From an uncultured Rhodospirillaceae bacterium (GTDB lineage: Bacteria; Pseudomonadota; Alphaproteobacteria; Reyranellales; Reyranellaceae): DNA of 64,000 nt. Positions 27,860-33,959 of this stretch are shown piece after piece. Position 1 is the stretch's first letter. Each line of letters starts with the position of its first letter. The stretch is taken from assembly GCA_945952105.1 (NCBI GenBank), contig CAMFGZ010000002.1, positions 1 through 64,000 of the forward strand, in the 5' to 3' direction. The translations under genes and the position numbers were made by a program. The notes under the pieces were generated by a model that was not told the origin of the DNA, ran no database searches, and saw nothing but the letters and a program-made list of their open reading frames with translations.

Positions 27860-28837
27860 ATGTTCCCAATCACCCGGCGTAGCGCCCTGACCCTCGGCGG
27901 CTCGGCCCTGTTGCTGCCCTCGGCCGTGCGCGCCCAGGCCAACTGGCCGGCCGGCCCGGTCACCTTCGTCGTCGGCTACGCCGCCGGCGGCAGCACCGAC
28001 ATCAACGCGCGCGAGCTGGCGCACGTCATGACGCCGGTCATCGGCCAGCAGATCATCATCGACAACAAGGGCGGCGCGGCCGGCTCGATCGGCCTGCGGG
28101 CGGTGGCCAACGCCAAGCCGGACGGCCAGACGCTGTTCGTCGCCGTCGGCACGAACGTGATCATCAATCCGCACGTCCAGAAGGGCATGATCGACACCCT
28201 CGCCGCCTTGGCGCCGATCTGCCAGATCACGGACTACCAGTACGTGCTGGTGGTGGGTAACTCGGTGCCGGTGAAGAACGCGGCCGAGCTGGTGGCGCTG
28301 GCCAAGAAGGATCCCGAGAAGCTCACCTATTCGTCGTCGGGCGTAGGCGGTAACAATCACCTGGCCGGTGCGCTGTTCGCGGACGCCGCCGGCGTCAAGC
28401 TGACCCACGTGCCCTACAAGGGCACCGGCCCCGCGGTGGCCGACGTCATCAGCGGCCAGATCACCATGAATTTCTCGTCGCTGCCGCCGGCGGTCTCCCA
28501 GGTCAAGGGCGGCAACCTCAAGGCGCTGGCAGTGACCGGCAGCAAGCGCGTCAGCTCCATGCCAGACGTTCCGACCCTGAAGGAACAGGGGATCGACGTC
28601 GTCGTCACCAGTTGGCAGGGCCTGTTCGCCCCGGCCAAGACCCCGCCCGACATCCTCGACAAGATCGAGAAGGCGGCCAAGGAAGGGATGAAGAACCCGA
28701 AGTATGAAGAGGCCCTCGCCCGCGACGGTCTGGAGATGCCGCCGAACCGCACGCGTGCCGAGTTCGCCAAGTTCGTTGCCGACGAGCACGCCTTCTGGGG
28801 CACCACACTGAAGAAGCTTAACATCCAGATGGAATAG
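27860..28837 (+). CDS. Bug/TctC-family tripartite carboxylate transporter receptor
   Basis: Periplasmic solute-binding protein. The 325-residue product has a Tat-like leader ITRRSALTLGGSALLLPSAVRAQA and the family signature PVTFVVGYAAGGSTDINARELA, GAAGSIGLRAVANAKPDG and LTHVPYKGTGPAVADVISGQ. It is preceded by GGAGGAAG. TctA/TctB membrane subunits are absent here, as is common for orphan Bug receptors. Probably binds a di- or tricarboxylate given the neighbouring TcuA-like enzyme. Confidence 0.92.
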   Translation: MFPITRRSALTLGGSALLLPSAVRAQANWPAGPVTFVVGYAAGGSTDINARELAHVMTPVIGQQIIIDNKGGAAGSIGLRAVANAKPDGQTLFVAVGTNVIINPHVQKGMIDTLAALAPICQITDYQYVLVVGNSVPVKNAAELVALAKKDPEKLTYSSSGVGGNNHLAGALFADAAGVKLTHVPYKGTGPAVADVISGQITMNFSSLPPAVSQVKGGNLKALAVTGSKRVSSMPDVPTLKEQGIDVVVTSWQGLFAPAKTPPDILDKIEKAAKEGMKNPKYEEALARDGLEMPPNRTRAEFAKFVADEHAFWGTTLKKLNIQME

Positions 28838-28943: not shown

Positions 28944-29801
28944 CTATCCGGGCGTCTTGGACTGGGCCTGTCTCCGGCGTCTCTCCTCGCCCAGCGTCTT
29001 CAGGCGCTCTGCTTCTTCCGGCGTGACGCGACCGTAGCGCGGCCGCCAGTCGTCGTCGGACGGCCAGGCGACACCGGAACGTTGCGTGGTGCGCGGCGCG
29101 GTTGCCCTGCCGAGCAGATCGAGCGCCTGGCCGGCGATCGACCGTTGCAGGTCGCGCCGCCACGGTGGGCCACACGGATTGCCCAGCGGGAAATCCGTGA
29201 ACAGGAAACGCGGCACGCCGCAATATTCGACGATGTCGAGCGCGGAACCGACGATCACGGTCGGCATTCCGTTGGTTTCGAGATGGCGGGCGACCAAACT
29301 CACGGTTTGGTGGCAGACGGGTCAAAGGGGACTGAGCAAGGCTGCGTCGGCACCGTCGGCACGCAGCCTTTCGAGGACCTGCGGCGCGTCGATCTCCATC
29401 GTCTTGCGCTGGCTGTACTCGGTCGGCACGCCGTGAAAGCGCGCGGCCAGGCCGCCGACCATGCCTTCCGCTACTCGCTCCTGCACAGCCTCGATCGGCA
29501 GGAAGCTGGCCCGATCGTCGGTGTGGGTCGATTCCTTGTCCCAGGCGACGTTTGCGGTGAACAGCGTCACCGGCGCAGGCTCGACGTCGCCCGACCAGAC
29601 TTGCCGTTGGCCGGAGGCGTCGCGATTGCCGAGGTCCGGCGGACTCGCCGTCGTCACCAGCCCGATCCTCATCTGCGACAGCGGCAGGGCGAGGCGCGCG
29701 AACGGCACCTCGTTGAAACGCGCCCAGACATAGTCCGACGGGTAGCCGAGGGCGCGATAGTAGGCCCTGGTGCGATCCATGTAGCGAACGGCTTCGGACA
29801 T
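28944..29801 (-). CDS. probable selenoprotein: glycine/sarcosine/betaine/D-proline reductase B-like (in-frame TGA = Sec160)
   Basis: A 285-residue protein if the in-frame TGA (29322-29324) is read as selenocysteine. The N-terminal part (MSEAVRYMDRTRAYYRALGYP, RFHGVPTEYSQRKTME, RADGADAALLSPL) and the C-terminal part (PVCHQTVSLVARHLE, VGSALDIVEYCGVPRFLF, DFPLGNPCGPPW) belong to one GrdB/PrdB-like protein in one frame. The TGA falls at the first position of the redox motif, giving U-P-V-C (160-163), where Cys-containing relatives, as I recall them, have C-P-V-C. Classical GrdB also uses UxxC. A SECIS-like hairpin follows. The ATG is preceded by GGGAGAG, 35 bp after the AhpD-like selenoprotein gene. 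Reaction unknown; redox or reductive cleavage chemistry is inferred. Confidence 0.88.
29293..29311 (-). promoter_or_regulatory. SECIS-like hairpin, GrdB-like selenoprotein
   Basis: In the mRNA, ten nucleotides after the UGA, a perfect 7-bp stem ACCAAAC/GUUUGGU closes a five-base loop CGUGA; two more pairs follow below a single C-C mismatch. Spacing (loop G at +19 after UGA), stem length and a G at loop position two fit the bacterial SECIS model. Confidence 0.8.
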
Positions 29802-29836
29802 CGGTCTCTCCCGGCAGCTTCTTGATTGCCGCCAGT

Positions 29837-30391
29837 CTAGCCGCGTTTCGGCACCATGCAGAAGCCCTGTGCCTCGATGCCGAGCGCGGGATTGAACTTG
29901 GAGCGGAAGTTTTCCATCGCTATGGCCGCAGTCAGCTCGACGATCTGTGCCTCGGTATAATGCTGCTTGAGCCGGTCCACGAGCGCGTCGTCGACCTTGC
30001 GGTCGGTGTAGGTGATGCGCTCGGCGTATTCGAGGGCCAGCCGTTCGGGTTCGCTGAAGAGCGCGCTGTCGCGCCACGTCGTGACTTCCGCCAGCTTCTC
30101 CATCCCGCCGTCCGTCGTCTCCAGCACACGGCTGGAATTGATATCAATTCAAAACGGGCAGCCATTGATCGTCGCGACCCGCACGTAGAGAAGCGCTGGA
30201 AGGCCCTTGGGCAGAAGGCCCGACTGCTCGATCGACTGGCCGAGCATGCCGGCGGCGCGCAGAATCGGCGGACAGTGCGCCATCACCTTGGTCGGATTGA
30301 GCAGGCCGCCGAACATCTCGCGCTGCTTGTCGAACACGGCCTTCAGGACGGGATCGCCACCGTCTTCCTCGATCTCGCTGACACGCGCCAT
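29837..30391 (-). CDS. probable selenoprotein: AhpD/carboxymuconolactone decarboxylase-like (in-frame TGA = Sec81)
   Basis: A 184-residue protein if the in-frame TGA (30149-30151) is read as selenocysteine. The sequence before it ends RVATINGCPF and the one after continues IDINSSRVLE, so the AhpD-type CxxC redox centre becomes C78-P-F-U81. The rest (LALEYAERITYTDRKVDDAL, IVELTAAIAMENFRSKFN, AQGFC) is ordinary for this family of thiol oxidoreductase-like proteins. TGA is used as a normal stop elsewhere here, so no code change is involved. AhpD-like CxxU selenoproteins are known from environmental genomes. First gene of a two-gene unit; its start is the ATG after GTGAGGTG. Likely a thiol/disulfide or peroxide-linked redox protein. 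Confidence 0.9.
30120..30136 (-). promoter_or_regulatory. SECIS-like hairpin, AhpD-like selenoprotein
   Basis: In the mRNA, twelve nucleotides after the UGA, a perfect 6-bp stem UCCAGC/GCUGGA closes a five-base loop CGUGU. The loop and closing pair (C-CGUG-N-G) match the hairpin in the next gene, and the loop G is at +20 after UGA. The 12-base linker is itself a palindrome, ATTGATATCAAT. Confidence 0.8.
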
Positions 30392-30498: not shown

Positions 30499-30924
30499 TC
30501 ATGGACGATCTGGCCGGACGAGCAGCCAGAAGACCATCGAAGAGGCCAATGCGCAGCACAGCACGAACGGTAGCAGGAAGGCGAGATTGGCCAGCAGGTT
30601 CAGCCAGGCCAAACTTTCCGGATCGCCATCGAAGCCGGCAGCCAGGCCACCGAACAGTGCCAGGAAGACGAAGCCCAGTGCAAGACCAGCCAGGCCATAG
30701 GCGCGCCAGCCGTTCCACTGCCTGCGGCGCATGACGAGAAAGACCGGCAGGCCAACGAGCAATGCGAAGGGATAGGAAATGTAACCGGCGAAAGCGGCAT
30801 AACCCAGCGTCTGCGAATCGCCGCCGGCGGCGAGGATGACGACGGCGAGGATCAGCGCCGGAATCATCGGCGCCACCAGAAAGCCCGCCACGGTGCGATA
30901 CGCCCTGCTGCGCGCGGACGGCAT
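30499..30924 (-). CDS. small polytopic membrane protein
   Basis: A 141-residue protein with four predicted transmembrane helices and a basic N-terminus (MPSARSRAYRT). No family is recognised. The ATG with GGAGAG just upstream is preferred over a TTG six codons earlier. It lies between serA and the selenoprotein pair on the same strand, separated from the latter by 107 bp that carry an inverted repeat. Confidence 0.65.
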   Translation of the reverse strand: MPSARSRAYRTVAGFLVAPMIPALILAVVILAAGGDSQTLGYAAFAGYISYPFALLVGLPVFLVMRRRQWNGWRAYGLAGLALGFVFLALFGGLAAGFDGDPESLAWLNLLANLAFLLPFVLCCALASSMVFWLLVRPDRP

Positions 30925-31008
30925 CCAACTCTCCAAAATCAAGGCCGGACCGAACTCATGCCCGGTCCGGCCTCATCCTGATCCCGGACGCTCGCGAAAT
31001 CGAGCGCG

Positions 31009-32592
31009 CTAGAAGCCCAGGGCCTTGGCCTGCATGACGCCCTCGATACCGCCGATCTTGCCCATCAGTTCGTTGGAGATCGGCTGGTCGACCTGGACCA
31101 GGGCGATCGCCGACCCGCCCGGCTTGTCGCGACCGAGGTGGAATGTGGCGATATTCACCTTGCCCTCGCCCAGCAGCGTACCCAGGCGGCCGATGAAGCC
31201 CGGCTTGTCGTCGTTGGTGATGTAGAGCATGTGCGGCGCGAACTCGGCGTCGATCTCGATGCCCTTGATCTCGACGATGCGCGGATGCTTGCCGCCGAAC
31301 AGCGTGCCCGTGACCGAGCGCGTGTACTTCTCGGTCGTGACCGAGAGGCGGATCATCGAATTGTAGTCGGTCTCGCGCTCGTGCTTGACCTCGGCCACCT
31401 CGACACCGCGCTCGCGGGCGATGACCGGCGCGTTGACCATGTTCACCGACGTGAGCTGCGGGCGCAGGACGCCCATCAGCGCCACCTGGGTCAGCGGCTT
31501 GACGTTGAGCTTCGCCACCTGGCCCTCGAATTCGATCGAGACGGCCTTGATGTCCGTGTCGGTCAGCTGGCCCGCGAAGGAGCCAAGCTTCTCGGCGAGG
31601 TCGAGGAACGGCGCCAGCTTCGGCGCGTCCTCGGCCGAGACGTTCGGCATGTTGAGCGAGTTGGTGACGGCGCCCGTCAGCAGGTAGTCGGCCATCTGCT
31701 CGGCGACCTGCAGCGCCACGTTCTCCTGCGCCTCGACCGTCGAGGCGCCGAGATGCGGTGTGCAGACGAGGTTCGGTGCGCCGAACAGCACGTTGGTCTT
31801 TGCCGGCTCCTCGACGAACACGTCGAAGCCCGCGCCCGCGATATGGCCCGAGACCAGCAGGTCGCGAACGGCCAGCTCGTCGACCAGGCCGCCGCGCGCG
31901 CAGTTGACGATGCGCACGCCCTTCTTGGTCTTCATCAGGTTGGCGCGCGACAGGATGTTCTTGGTCTGCTCGGTGAGCGGCGTGTGCACCGTGATGAAGT
32001 CGGCACGCGCCAACACCTGCTCCAACGTCGCCTTCTCGACGCCGAGCTCGGCGGCGCGCTGGTCGCTCAGGAACGGGTCGTAGGCCACAACGCGCATCTT
32101 GAGACCGATGGCGCGCTCCGCGACGATCGAGCCGATGTTGCCGCATCCGATCAGGCCCAGCGTCTTGAAGCTGAGCTCGGTGCCCATGAACTTGTTCTTC
32201 TCCCACTTGCCGGCTTGCGTGCTGGCATTGGCCTCCGGCACCTGACGGGCGACGGCGAACATCAGCGCGATTGCGTGCTCGGCGGTGGTGATGGCATTGC
32301 CGAACGGCGTGTTCATCACGACGACGCCGTGCGAAGTGGCGGCCTTGATGTCGACATTGTCGACGCCGATACCGGCGCGGCCCACCACCTTGAGCTTTTT
32401 GGCAACCGCTAGGACCTCGGCCGTGACCTTGGTGGCCGAGCGGATCGCAAGGCCTTCGTAGTTACCGATGATCTCGCGCAGCTCGGCCGGCTTCAGGCCC
32501 GGCTTGAAATCGACGTCGCAGCCGCGCTCCGAGAAAATCTCGACGGCACGCGGAGACAGCTCATCGGAAATGAGAACTTTTGGCTTGGCCAT
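31009..32592 (-). CDS. serA: D-3-phosphoglycerate dehydrogenase
   Basis: First committed step of serine biosynthesis: 3-phosphoglycerate to 3-phosphohydroxypyruvate with NAD. The 527-residue long form has a substrate/Rossmann core (LGLIGCGNIGSIVAERA, NCARGGLVDE, ATL...CTPHLGAST), an intervening ASB domain, and a C-terminal ACT domain (ITNDDKPGFIGRLGTLLG) for serine feedback. The start is the ATG before AKPKVLISDELS. It lies 100 bp downstream of serC; a long inverted repeat fills the gap. Confidence 0.96.
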   Translation of the reverse strand: MAKPKVLISDELSPRAVEIFSERGCDVDFKPGLKPAELREIIGNYEGLAIRSATKVTAEVLAVAKKLKVVGRAGIGVDNVDIKAATSHGVVVMNTPFGNAITTAEHAIALMFAVARQVPEANASTQAGKWEKNKFMGTELSFKTLGLIGCGNIGSIVAERAIGLKMRVVAYDPFLSDQRAAELGVEKATLEQVLARADFITVHTPLTEQTKNILSRANLMKTKKGVRIVNCARGGLVDELAVRDLLVSGHIAGAGFDVFVEEPAKTNVLFGAPNLVCTPHLGASTVEAQENVALQVAEQMADYLLTGAVTNSLNMPNVSAEDAPKLAPFLDLAEKLGSFAGQLTDTDIKAVSIEFEGQVAKLNVKPLTQVALMGVLRPQLTSVNMVNAPVIARERGVEVAEVKHERETDYNSMIRLSVTTEKYTRSVTGTLFGGKHPRIVEIKGIEIDAEFAPHMLYITNDDKPGFIGRLGTLLGEGKVNIATFHLGRDKPGGSAIALVQVDQPISNELMGKIGGIEGVMQAKALGF

Positions 32593-32612
32593 GGGATGAC
32601 TCCAAATTCTTT

Positions 32613-32693
32613 GCTGGGGGCGCGCCACTCCAGTGGCGCGTCATGCAGTGCTGCAGCAGGAAGATCGCGCCACTGGAGTGGCGCGCCCCCAGC
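32613..32693. repeat. perfect 28-bp inverted repeat with nested palindromes between serC and serA
   Basis: Two perfectly complementary 28-bp arms (32613-32640 and 32666-32693) flank 25 bases. Each arm starts CTGGGGGCGCG from the outside and itself contains the palindrome GCGCCACT-CC-AGTGGCGC, so cruciforms can form at two levels. The element abuts the serC stop codon. Related, degraded copies occur at 28840-28914 and 33885-33900. Confidence 0.95.
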
Positions 32694-33856
32694 TACGAGA
32701 ACTCGCGCTCGATCTCGGCGTAGGCCCAGTCGAGCCACGGCAGCAGCGCTTCGAGATCGGCCTTCTCGACCGTCGCGCCGCACCAGATGCGCAGGCCGGG
32801 AGGGGCGTCGCGATACGAACCGACGTCGTAGCCCGCCTTCTCGGTCTCGAGCAGGTCGCCCATCTTCTTCGCTGCCGCGGCCTGCTTGTCGGCGGGCAGC
32901 GCGGTGAACCAGGGCGCCTTGATTACGAGGCAGACCGAAGTGTTGGAGCGGATTGCCTTGTCGGCTGCCAGGAAGGCAGCCCAAGGGCGGGACTCGACGA
33001 ACTGCTCGAGCACACCGAGATTGCCCTCGGAACGCGCCATCAGGCCTTTGAGACCTCCGACACCCTCGCCCCACTTCAGGCCGTCGATCGCGTCCTCGAT
33101 GCAGAGCAGCGAAGGCGTGTTGATGGTGTCGCCCTTGAAGATGGCCTCCGAGAACTTGCCGCCTGAGGTCAGGCGGAAGATCTTCGGCATCGGCCAAGCC
33201 GGCGTGTAGCTTTCGAGCCGCTGGATGGCGCGCGGCGAGAGGACGAGCATGCCGTGCGCGCCCTCGCCGCCCATGACCTTTTGCCAGGACCAGGTGACGA
33301 CATCGAGCTTCGCCCATGGCAGGTCCATCGCGAACACGGCCGAGGTCGCGTCGCAGATCGCGAGGCCCTCACGATCATCGGTGATCCAGTCGCCGTTCGG
33401 GACCTTCACGCCCGAGGTCGTGCCGTTCCAGGTGAAGACGACGTCGTGCGTCCAGTCGACCGCCTTGAGGTCGGCGATCTGGCCGTAGGGCGCCTTGAGC
33501 GTGCGGGTGTCCTTGAGCTTGAGCTGCTTCACCACGTCGGTGACCCAGCCCTCGCCGAAGCTTTCCCAGGTCAGCATGTCGACCGGGCGGGCGCCGAGCA
33601 GCGACCACAGCGCCATCTCAACGGCGCCGGTATCGGACGCCGGAACGATGGCGATGCGATGGTCGGCGGGAATACCGAGGATCGCGCGCGTGCGATCGAC
33701 CGCTTCGACAATCTTCTTCTTGCCAAGCTTGGAGCGATGGGACCGCCCGACGGCGGCATCTTTGAGAACTTCCGGTGTCCAACCCGGACGCTTGGCGCAG
33801 GGGCCCGAGGAAAAATCGGGACGCGCAGGACGCAGAGACGGCTTCGTCATTGTCAT
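32693..33856 (-). CDS. serC: phosphoserine aminotransferase
   Basis: PLP-dependent transaminase converting 3-phosphohydroxypyruvate to phosphoserine. The 387-residue product is of the alphaproteobacterial/archaeal-like SerC type: [42 protein letters not shown], and the PLP-lysine region [22 protein letters not shown]. It precedes serA on the same strand, giving a serine-biosynthesis operon interrupted by a palindromic repeat. Confidence 0.95.
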
Positions 33857-33884
33857 TCTCCCTTACAGAAGAAATGCACTCCGG

Positions 33885-33900
33885 TGGGGGAGCGTGGCCC
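33885..33900. repeat. fragment of the CTGGGGG palindromic repeat
   Basis: TGGGGGAGCGTGGCCC differs at one base from the left arm of the degenerate copy at 28841-28856. It lies in the 103-bp gap between the GT-C-like gene and serC. Only half an element is recognisable. Confidence 0.45.
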
Positions 33901-33959
33901 GCGGCCGATATACGGGCCGACGGGTTCGGCGTCAATGTGGAGAGATTGTCGCGCCCTAC

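Follow-up and report, generated by a model that had tools for sequence, protein, structure and literature searches.

Two predicted selenoprotein genes lie side by side on the minus strand of the window (the whole 64,000-nucleotide stretch of DNA analysed here, from an uncultured Reyranellaceae bacterium), which raises the question of whether their products form one redox system or act as separate enzymes. The genome searched comprises 5.46 Mb in 77 contigs and is nearest to Reyranella by its matches. The features of the locus are as follows.

27860-28837, plus strand: flanking TctC receptor gene, convergent with the pair
28944-29801, minus strand: PrdB/GrdB-like gene, predicted selenoprotein of 285 residues
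29293-29311, minus strand: SECIS-type hairpin of the PrdB-like gene (stem ACCAAAC, loop CGUGA)
29322-29324, minus strand: in-frame UGA of the PrdB-like gene, codon 160, predicted selenocysteine (Sec), context U160-P-V-C163
29802-29836, minus strand: gap of 35 bp from the AhpD-like stop to the PrdB-like gene
29837-30391, minus strand: AhpD-like gene (AhpD fold, CMD, COG2128-like), predicted selenoprotein of 184 residues
30119-30137, minus strand: SECIS-type hairpin of the AhpD-like gene (stem UUCCAGC, loop CGUGU)
30149-30151, minus strand: in-frame UGA of the AhpD-like gene, codon 81, predicted Sec, context C78-P-F-U81
30499-30942, minus strand: flanking ORF upstream of the AhpD-like gene, no Pfam match
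31009-32628, minus strand: flanking serA (D-3-phosphoglycerate dehydrogenase), upstream of the AhpD-like gene

The first-pass annotation had described two Sec genes 35 bp apart, one encoding a CxxU and the other a UxxC protein, and the layout bears this out: both genes are on the minus strand with positions 29802-29836 between them, each has exactly one in-frame UGA, and the motifs are C78-P-F-U81 and U160-P-V-C163. Inside the gap, GGGAGA precedes the PrdB-like ATG and is presumably a ribosome-binding-like stretch. Judged from this arrangement, the two genes are probably co-transcribed as one transcription unit. Farther along the window, a serC leader RNA (RF00517, 46.3 bits) lies at 33852-33904, before serC.

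Prediction of selenocysteine at both UGA codons

Both UGAs are predicted to be read as selenocysteine. The genome encodes a tRNA-Sec (71.5 bits, cut-off 47), which ARAGORN names at the same place, together with SelA (563 bits, cut-off 268), SelB (467 bits, cut-off 242), and SelD (301 bits, cut-off 125). In the tRNA-Sec family search, the positive control scored above the cut-off in 5 of 14 genomes; a second candidate in the window's genome reached 48.3 bits (cut-off 47), and we relied on the 71.5-bit place. The genome also carries a formate dehydrogenase operon (L192, G000 C3) with an in-frame TGA in the alpha subunit gene, followed by fdhE, selA, and selB; a tRNA-Sec lies further on from these genes at the same locus.

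Homology continues behind each UGA, and homologues carry Cys at its place. For the PrdB-like protein this was the case in 120 of 120 database homologues among the matches listed, a set in which Sec forms are under-represented by construction because it consists of full-length predicted proteins. Among the 120 database products listed as matches to the AhpD-like protein, 115 (P0127-P0242 minus P0199) start at or after residue 82, behind the UGA, so the Sec form of this protein is evidently often misannotated; P0123 is a full-length Cys form. Some AhpD-like database entries have Trp, Gly, Ser, or Leu where Sec is predicted; these are presumably of uncertain translation and were not used as Cys forms. 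Within Reyranellaceae, 68 genomes supply 69 full-length AhpD-like rows, each with exactly one TGA; in a 69th genome the copy is cut. Behind the UGA, third codon positions hold 243 of 384 substitutions in the PrdB-like gene (against 6 genomes) and 279 of 356 in the AhpD-like gene (against 9 genomes), the comparison being restricted to matches of equal length (6 of 29 and 9 of 50, respectively). Substitutions look protein-coding both before and behind each UGA.

SECIS-type hairpins and their covariation

A hairpin with a loop G lies just behind each UGA, that of the AhpD-like gene being the weaker one by energy alone. Both hairpins have seven pairs and a closing C-G, the loops are CGUGA (PrdB-like) and CGUGU (AhpD-like), and the loop G is at +19 in the PrdB-like and +20 in the AhpD-like gene, confirming the shared architecture that had been noticed earlier. 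The CGUG is read in different frames (C-GTG-A versus CGT-GT), and therefore reflects no shared codon constraint. It is common to both hairpins but not special to the pair: the loop also occurs in a PrdB-like gene on contig C50 of the same genome and in PrdB-like genes elsewhere. The FdhA UGA of the window's genome has no CGUG loop.

The stems are preserved among orthologues. In the AhpD-like stem, 268 of 301 cells are paired (43 distinct sequences) and four pairs show changes on both sides; in the PrdB-like stem all 126 cells are paired (18 distinct sequences) and one pair shows a double change from A-U to G-C. Slid controls pair at 28-53% (AhpD-like) and 14-38% (PrdB-like). When the 50 nt starting at the UGA are folded for minimum energy, the stem appears in 27 of 30 PrdB-like but in only 21 of 51 AhpD-like sequences; the AhpD-like gene in the window itself takes another fold, without the stem. 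The case for the AhpD-like hairpin is one of covariation. Four genomes of other genera (G002, G004, G071, G074) have a possible AhpD-like hairpin shifted by a base, which is the minimum-energy fold in three of them.

A related PrdB-like group offers a comparison between Sec and Cys copies. We sampled seven of its many UGA copies, all of which have a perfect stem and a CGTGA loop, and took all six full copies without TGA. In these six Cys copies, one of them from the window's own genome, the CGTGA loop is replaced by other loops and 4-5 of the 7 stem positions are paired; one copy (L215) encodes the same residues across the hairpin region. Of all the observations, this contrast indicates most clearly that the hairpin functions in decoding the UGA, and the Cys copies without hairpin are a natural control for SECIS recognition.

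A protein closer to the PrdB than to the GrdB models

The UxxC protein had been called GrdB-like, and a weak GrdB match is indeed present. It matches the PrdB model TIGR04483 at 70.1 bits (cut-off 300), with residues 34-231 aligned to 20-219 of 238, and the GrdB models at 20.9-30.3 bits in the C-terminal part of GrdB; given these scores we prefer the name PrdB-like. The cut-offs of both families lie above the protein's scores, including those of TIGR01917 (20.9 of 602 bits) and TIGR01918 (25.5 of 65 bits), and no Pfam family, GRDB included, matched at E 0.001. The only curated cut-off reached by either protein of the pair is that of CMD, discussed below. In the predicted structure (pLDDT 95.3), U160 follows a strand (153-157) and precedes a helix (161-176); structure searches found no solved relative. 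Across 48 PrdB-like rows, position 160 (Cys in read-through rows), P161, and R198 are invariant, C163 is kept in 46, and H164 in 47. Neither GrdA nor PrdA had a match in the genome, and the control genomes were also without match for either. To our knowledge, the hosts of these genes are not bacteria known for Stickland fermentation.

The window's genome has two more PrdB-like genes. One (G000 C24:4486-5298; L018, L193) is a Cys form; most Reyranellaceae copies of its group carry TGA, and six full TGA-free copies have no hairpin. The other (G000 C50:13354-13956; L019, L194) has about 30% identity, an in-frame TGA, and a hairpin with a CGTGG loop. Tandem PrdB-like genes with a TGA in each occur at L195, L196, and L197 (G026 C62, G033 C199, G060 C114) and at L045, and may form a two-subunit enzyme. 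ORFs of one cluster adjoin Cys-type PrdB-like genes at L018, L049, L051, L052, L055, and L058, the one at L018 belonging to CoA-transferase family III. In another Reyranellaceae genus, ORFs of one cluster lie about 26 bp upstream of PrdB-like genes (L152, L154, L155, L033), and the one at L155 belongs to the nitroreductase family.

An AhpD-like protein without the relay Glu and His

The AhpD-like protein passes the CMD family PF02627 (28.5 bits, cut-off 23). Its best family match, over nearly the full length, is the YciW-related (seleno)protein family NF053654, at 138.7 bits and below the cut-off of 310; it is also below the cut-offs of TIGR01926 and TIGR00778. Relatives with solved structures are PDB 2ijc and 2o4d, and the debrominase Bmp8 (PDB 6ohi) is a relative over residues 13-173 (E 1.4e-8). 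As given in the relevant part of PMC3141380, mycobacterial AhpD works with Glu118, Cys130, His132, Cys133, and His137. In all 51 AhpD-like orthologues Ala or Pro stands at the Glu position and Asn at that of the last His; all 20 Cys homologues have neither the relay Glu nor the relay His. Both sets keep D83 and C178 without exception. The proton-relay Glu and His of an AhpD peroxidase were thus not found in this protein, and AhpD-type peroxidase action is unlikely because they are missing. We infer that the protein may be a thiol/selenol exchanger with three residues (C78, U81, and C178). Reductive dehalogenation, suggested by analogy with Bmp8 and with a fluoroacetate operon treated in a section of PMC10838667, is a lead. 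Outside Reyranellaceae, L160 (G130 C3) holds an AhpD-like orthologue with TGA at 73% identity, perhaps acquired by transfer.

The two genes adjoin in part of one genus

We found an AhpD-like gene in 69 of 75 Reyranellaceae genomes and some PrdB-like gene in 74 of 75. The two adjoin in 13 of the 69 genomes bearing the AhpD-like gene, which is mostly without this neighbour; the count includes AhpD-like genes near contig ends whose neighbour cannot be judged. Coordinates place the genes together in twelve of these genomes, and in the remaining one (G047) the pair was recognised from a fragment where a contig ends. Measured from match coordinates, the shortest gap within pairs is about 5 bp (G039) and the longest about 38 bp, and both UGAs are readable in 11 of the 13 pairs, all 11 of which are Sec/Sec. 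Starting from the PrdB-like gene, 9 of 79 named loci (which overlap in part with the genomes of the family survey) have an AhpD-like neighbour, all with at least about 80% identity to the window's PrdB-like protein; at the other 70 no AhpD-like neighbour was found within up to 10 kb, or less at contig ends. At 18 of 18 further loci with close PrdB-like orthologues, also from Reyranellaceae, the gene lies elsewhere, in several contexts, and its neighbour is not AhpD-like. Both neighbouring ORFs are opposite in only five of these 18 loci, and several have a co-directional ORF no more than 50 bp away.

In many Reyranella loci serA lies upstream of the AhpD-like gene, and in many loci without a PrdB-like gene there it is followed by tctC; many genomes still have both flanking genes, with either nothing or other ORFs in the space between the AhpD-like gene and tctC. 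The PrdB-like gene stands behind the AhpD-like gene in part of Reyranella only. At larger scale, AhpD-like relatives had a match in 16 of 385 class genomes and 12 of 398 phylum genomes (own genome included). No PrdB-like gene was found within about 1.5 kb of 20 loci with Cys homologues, L160, or L188-L191, and likewise none near the relative at L161. Scans of neighbouring ORFs, which came from a simple purpose-made ORF caller, revealed no common partner at E 1e-6 either beside PrdB-like genes (115 of 126 listed ORFs scanned, the 11 left out being mostly short; top family 6 of 115) or beside AhpD relatives (71 of 87 ORFs scanned, the 16 left out being mostly short).

The first-pass annotation had read the locus as a relay from the AhpD-like to the GrdB-like protein, possibly a new pathway, and had named in advance the observation that would count against it, namely that the families are rarely neighbours elsewhere. 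This is what we found (70 of 79 loci without the pair, 18 of 18 orthologues elsewhere), and on this sequence comparison the relay or pathway reading is weakened. Its two-selenoprotein operon holds as one likely transcription unit that recurs in 13 of 69 genomes but fails as an operon conserved across lineages, given those 13 genomes and the 9 of 79 loci. Because pairing was seen in part of one genus only, the enzymes likely work separately, with no fixed relay.

History of the pair

The two gene trees differ in how they group the paired copies. The PrdB-like tree, built from 30 Reyranellaceae copies and 14 others, unites the 12 adjacent copies in a single clade with support of 95/95. In the AhpD-like tree, the neighbours of the PrdB-like genes are not one clade, a forced grouping is rejected (AU p 0.0002), and at least two changes are needed. 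A PrdB-like clade beside scattered AhpD-like neighbours implies that the PrdB lineage kept or regained an AhpD-like neighbour, which independence of the two enzymes does not predict; no other finding speaks as strongly for a functional link between them. Two histories would account for the trees: an old pairing with several later separations, or arrival of the PrdB-like gene at this one site repeatedly or by transfer.

Explanations of the pair

With moderate confidence, we favour two predicted selenoproteins encoded in a lineage-specific two-gene unit, with enzymes that work independently. The PrdB-like selenolate U160, which lies where a helix begins behind a strand, would attack an electrophilic small molecule in the manner of the GrdB/PrdB family; C163 would then resolve the product, and the general thiol system of the cell would reset it. 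The AhpD-like protein would act as a thiol/selenol oxidoreductase through C78, U81, and C178 and not as an AhpD-type peroxidase, given its missing relay Glu and His. If the two genes share a transcript, they would be expressed together and in dependence on selenium, without electrons passing directly between the proteins. We infer the chemistry of both proteins from family resemblance.

If instead the AhpD-like CxxU protein reduced the PrdB-like UxxC enzyme, the two would make up one two-selenoprotein reductase system. The short co-directional gap, the Sec/Sec state of all 11 readable pairs, and the single clade of AhpD-adjacent PrdB-like copies with neighbours that form none would all fit such an arrangement; the invariant third Cys could pass electrons, and AhpD itself is described as an adaptor for AhpC in a part of PMC3141380. 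Yet the pair occurs in only 13 of the 69 Reyranellaceae genomes that carry an AhpD-like gene, the AhpD-like gene persists without a PrdB-like gene, and PrdB-like genes occur in several other contexts, so that we regard this arrangement as quite unlikely. An equally doubtful elaboration would be a non-clostridial relay from an AhpD-fold CxxU protein with a third Cys, released from peroxidase function, to a PrdB-family UxxC enzyme, with a distinct PrdB clade having co-evolved with it and keeping its place behind the AhpD-like gene across differing AhpD-like lineages. Chance placing is unlikely too: an often-moving PrdB-like gene would have come to rest downstream of the AhpD-like gene, at a site that tolerates it, with no functional meaning, as the empty site or unrelated ORFs in sister genomes might suggest, but the short-gap pair recurs in 13 Reyranella genomes, the distant G039 included. 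A reading of the UGAs as genuine stop codons or lesions of pseudogenes, with hairpins that arose by chance, is barely credible; the AhpD-like stem in the window is missing from the minimum-energy fold, but against this stand the conserved TGA, the coding-like substitution downstream, the covarying hairpins, the Cys homologues, and the full Sec machinery.

Comparison with known systems

Both kinds of selenoprotein have long been listed. The pertinent parts of two marine metagenome surveys (2005 and 2008; PMC1088965, PMC2398784) give 42 Sargasso Sea and 235 GOS sequences for PrdB-type UxxC proteins and 27 and 299, respectively, for COG2128 AhpD-like CxxU proteins, which places both among the commonest marine-metagenome selenoproteins in these sources; both are also tabulated in sections of two reviews (PMC9312934, PMC13188914). 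In the portions of these sources cited here, no function is given for either kind beyond clostridial amino-acid reduction. The neighbouring selenoprotein pairs named in the cited parts of PMC1088965 and PMC2398784 are Prx/SelW-like, Prx/Prx-like, and Prx-like/AhpD-like, and a PrdB/AhpD pair is not among them; nor was it found in the literature among the matches listed, in the parts available, and an earlier publication is possible. A Reyranella lineage with both genes on one likely transcript is a small system for testing their joint action.

Like PrdB (TIGR04483) and GrdB (TIGR01917/01918), the PrdB-like protein has a UxxC site, and its likeness covers nearly the whole length of PrdB and the C-terminal part of GrdB, whereas its scores are far below the curated cut-offs. 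The AhpD-like protein shares with AhpD/PA0269-type peroxidases its place in the CMD/AhpD family by sequence and the CxxC/U site; it differs in Asn85, Asp83, the third invariant Cys178, and Sec in place of the second Cys. Bmp8 is likewise a sequence relative with a CxxC site, but a weaker match than the PA0269 type. The PrdB-type UxxC and AhpD-like CxxU proteins of the marine metagenomes are the same two kinds, with the same Sec motifs, as those found here; in the cited parts of PMC1088965 and PMC2398784 they appear as separate families, whereas here they are encoded by adjacent genes.
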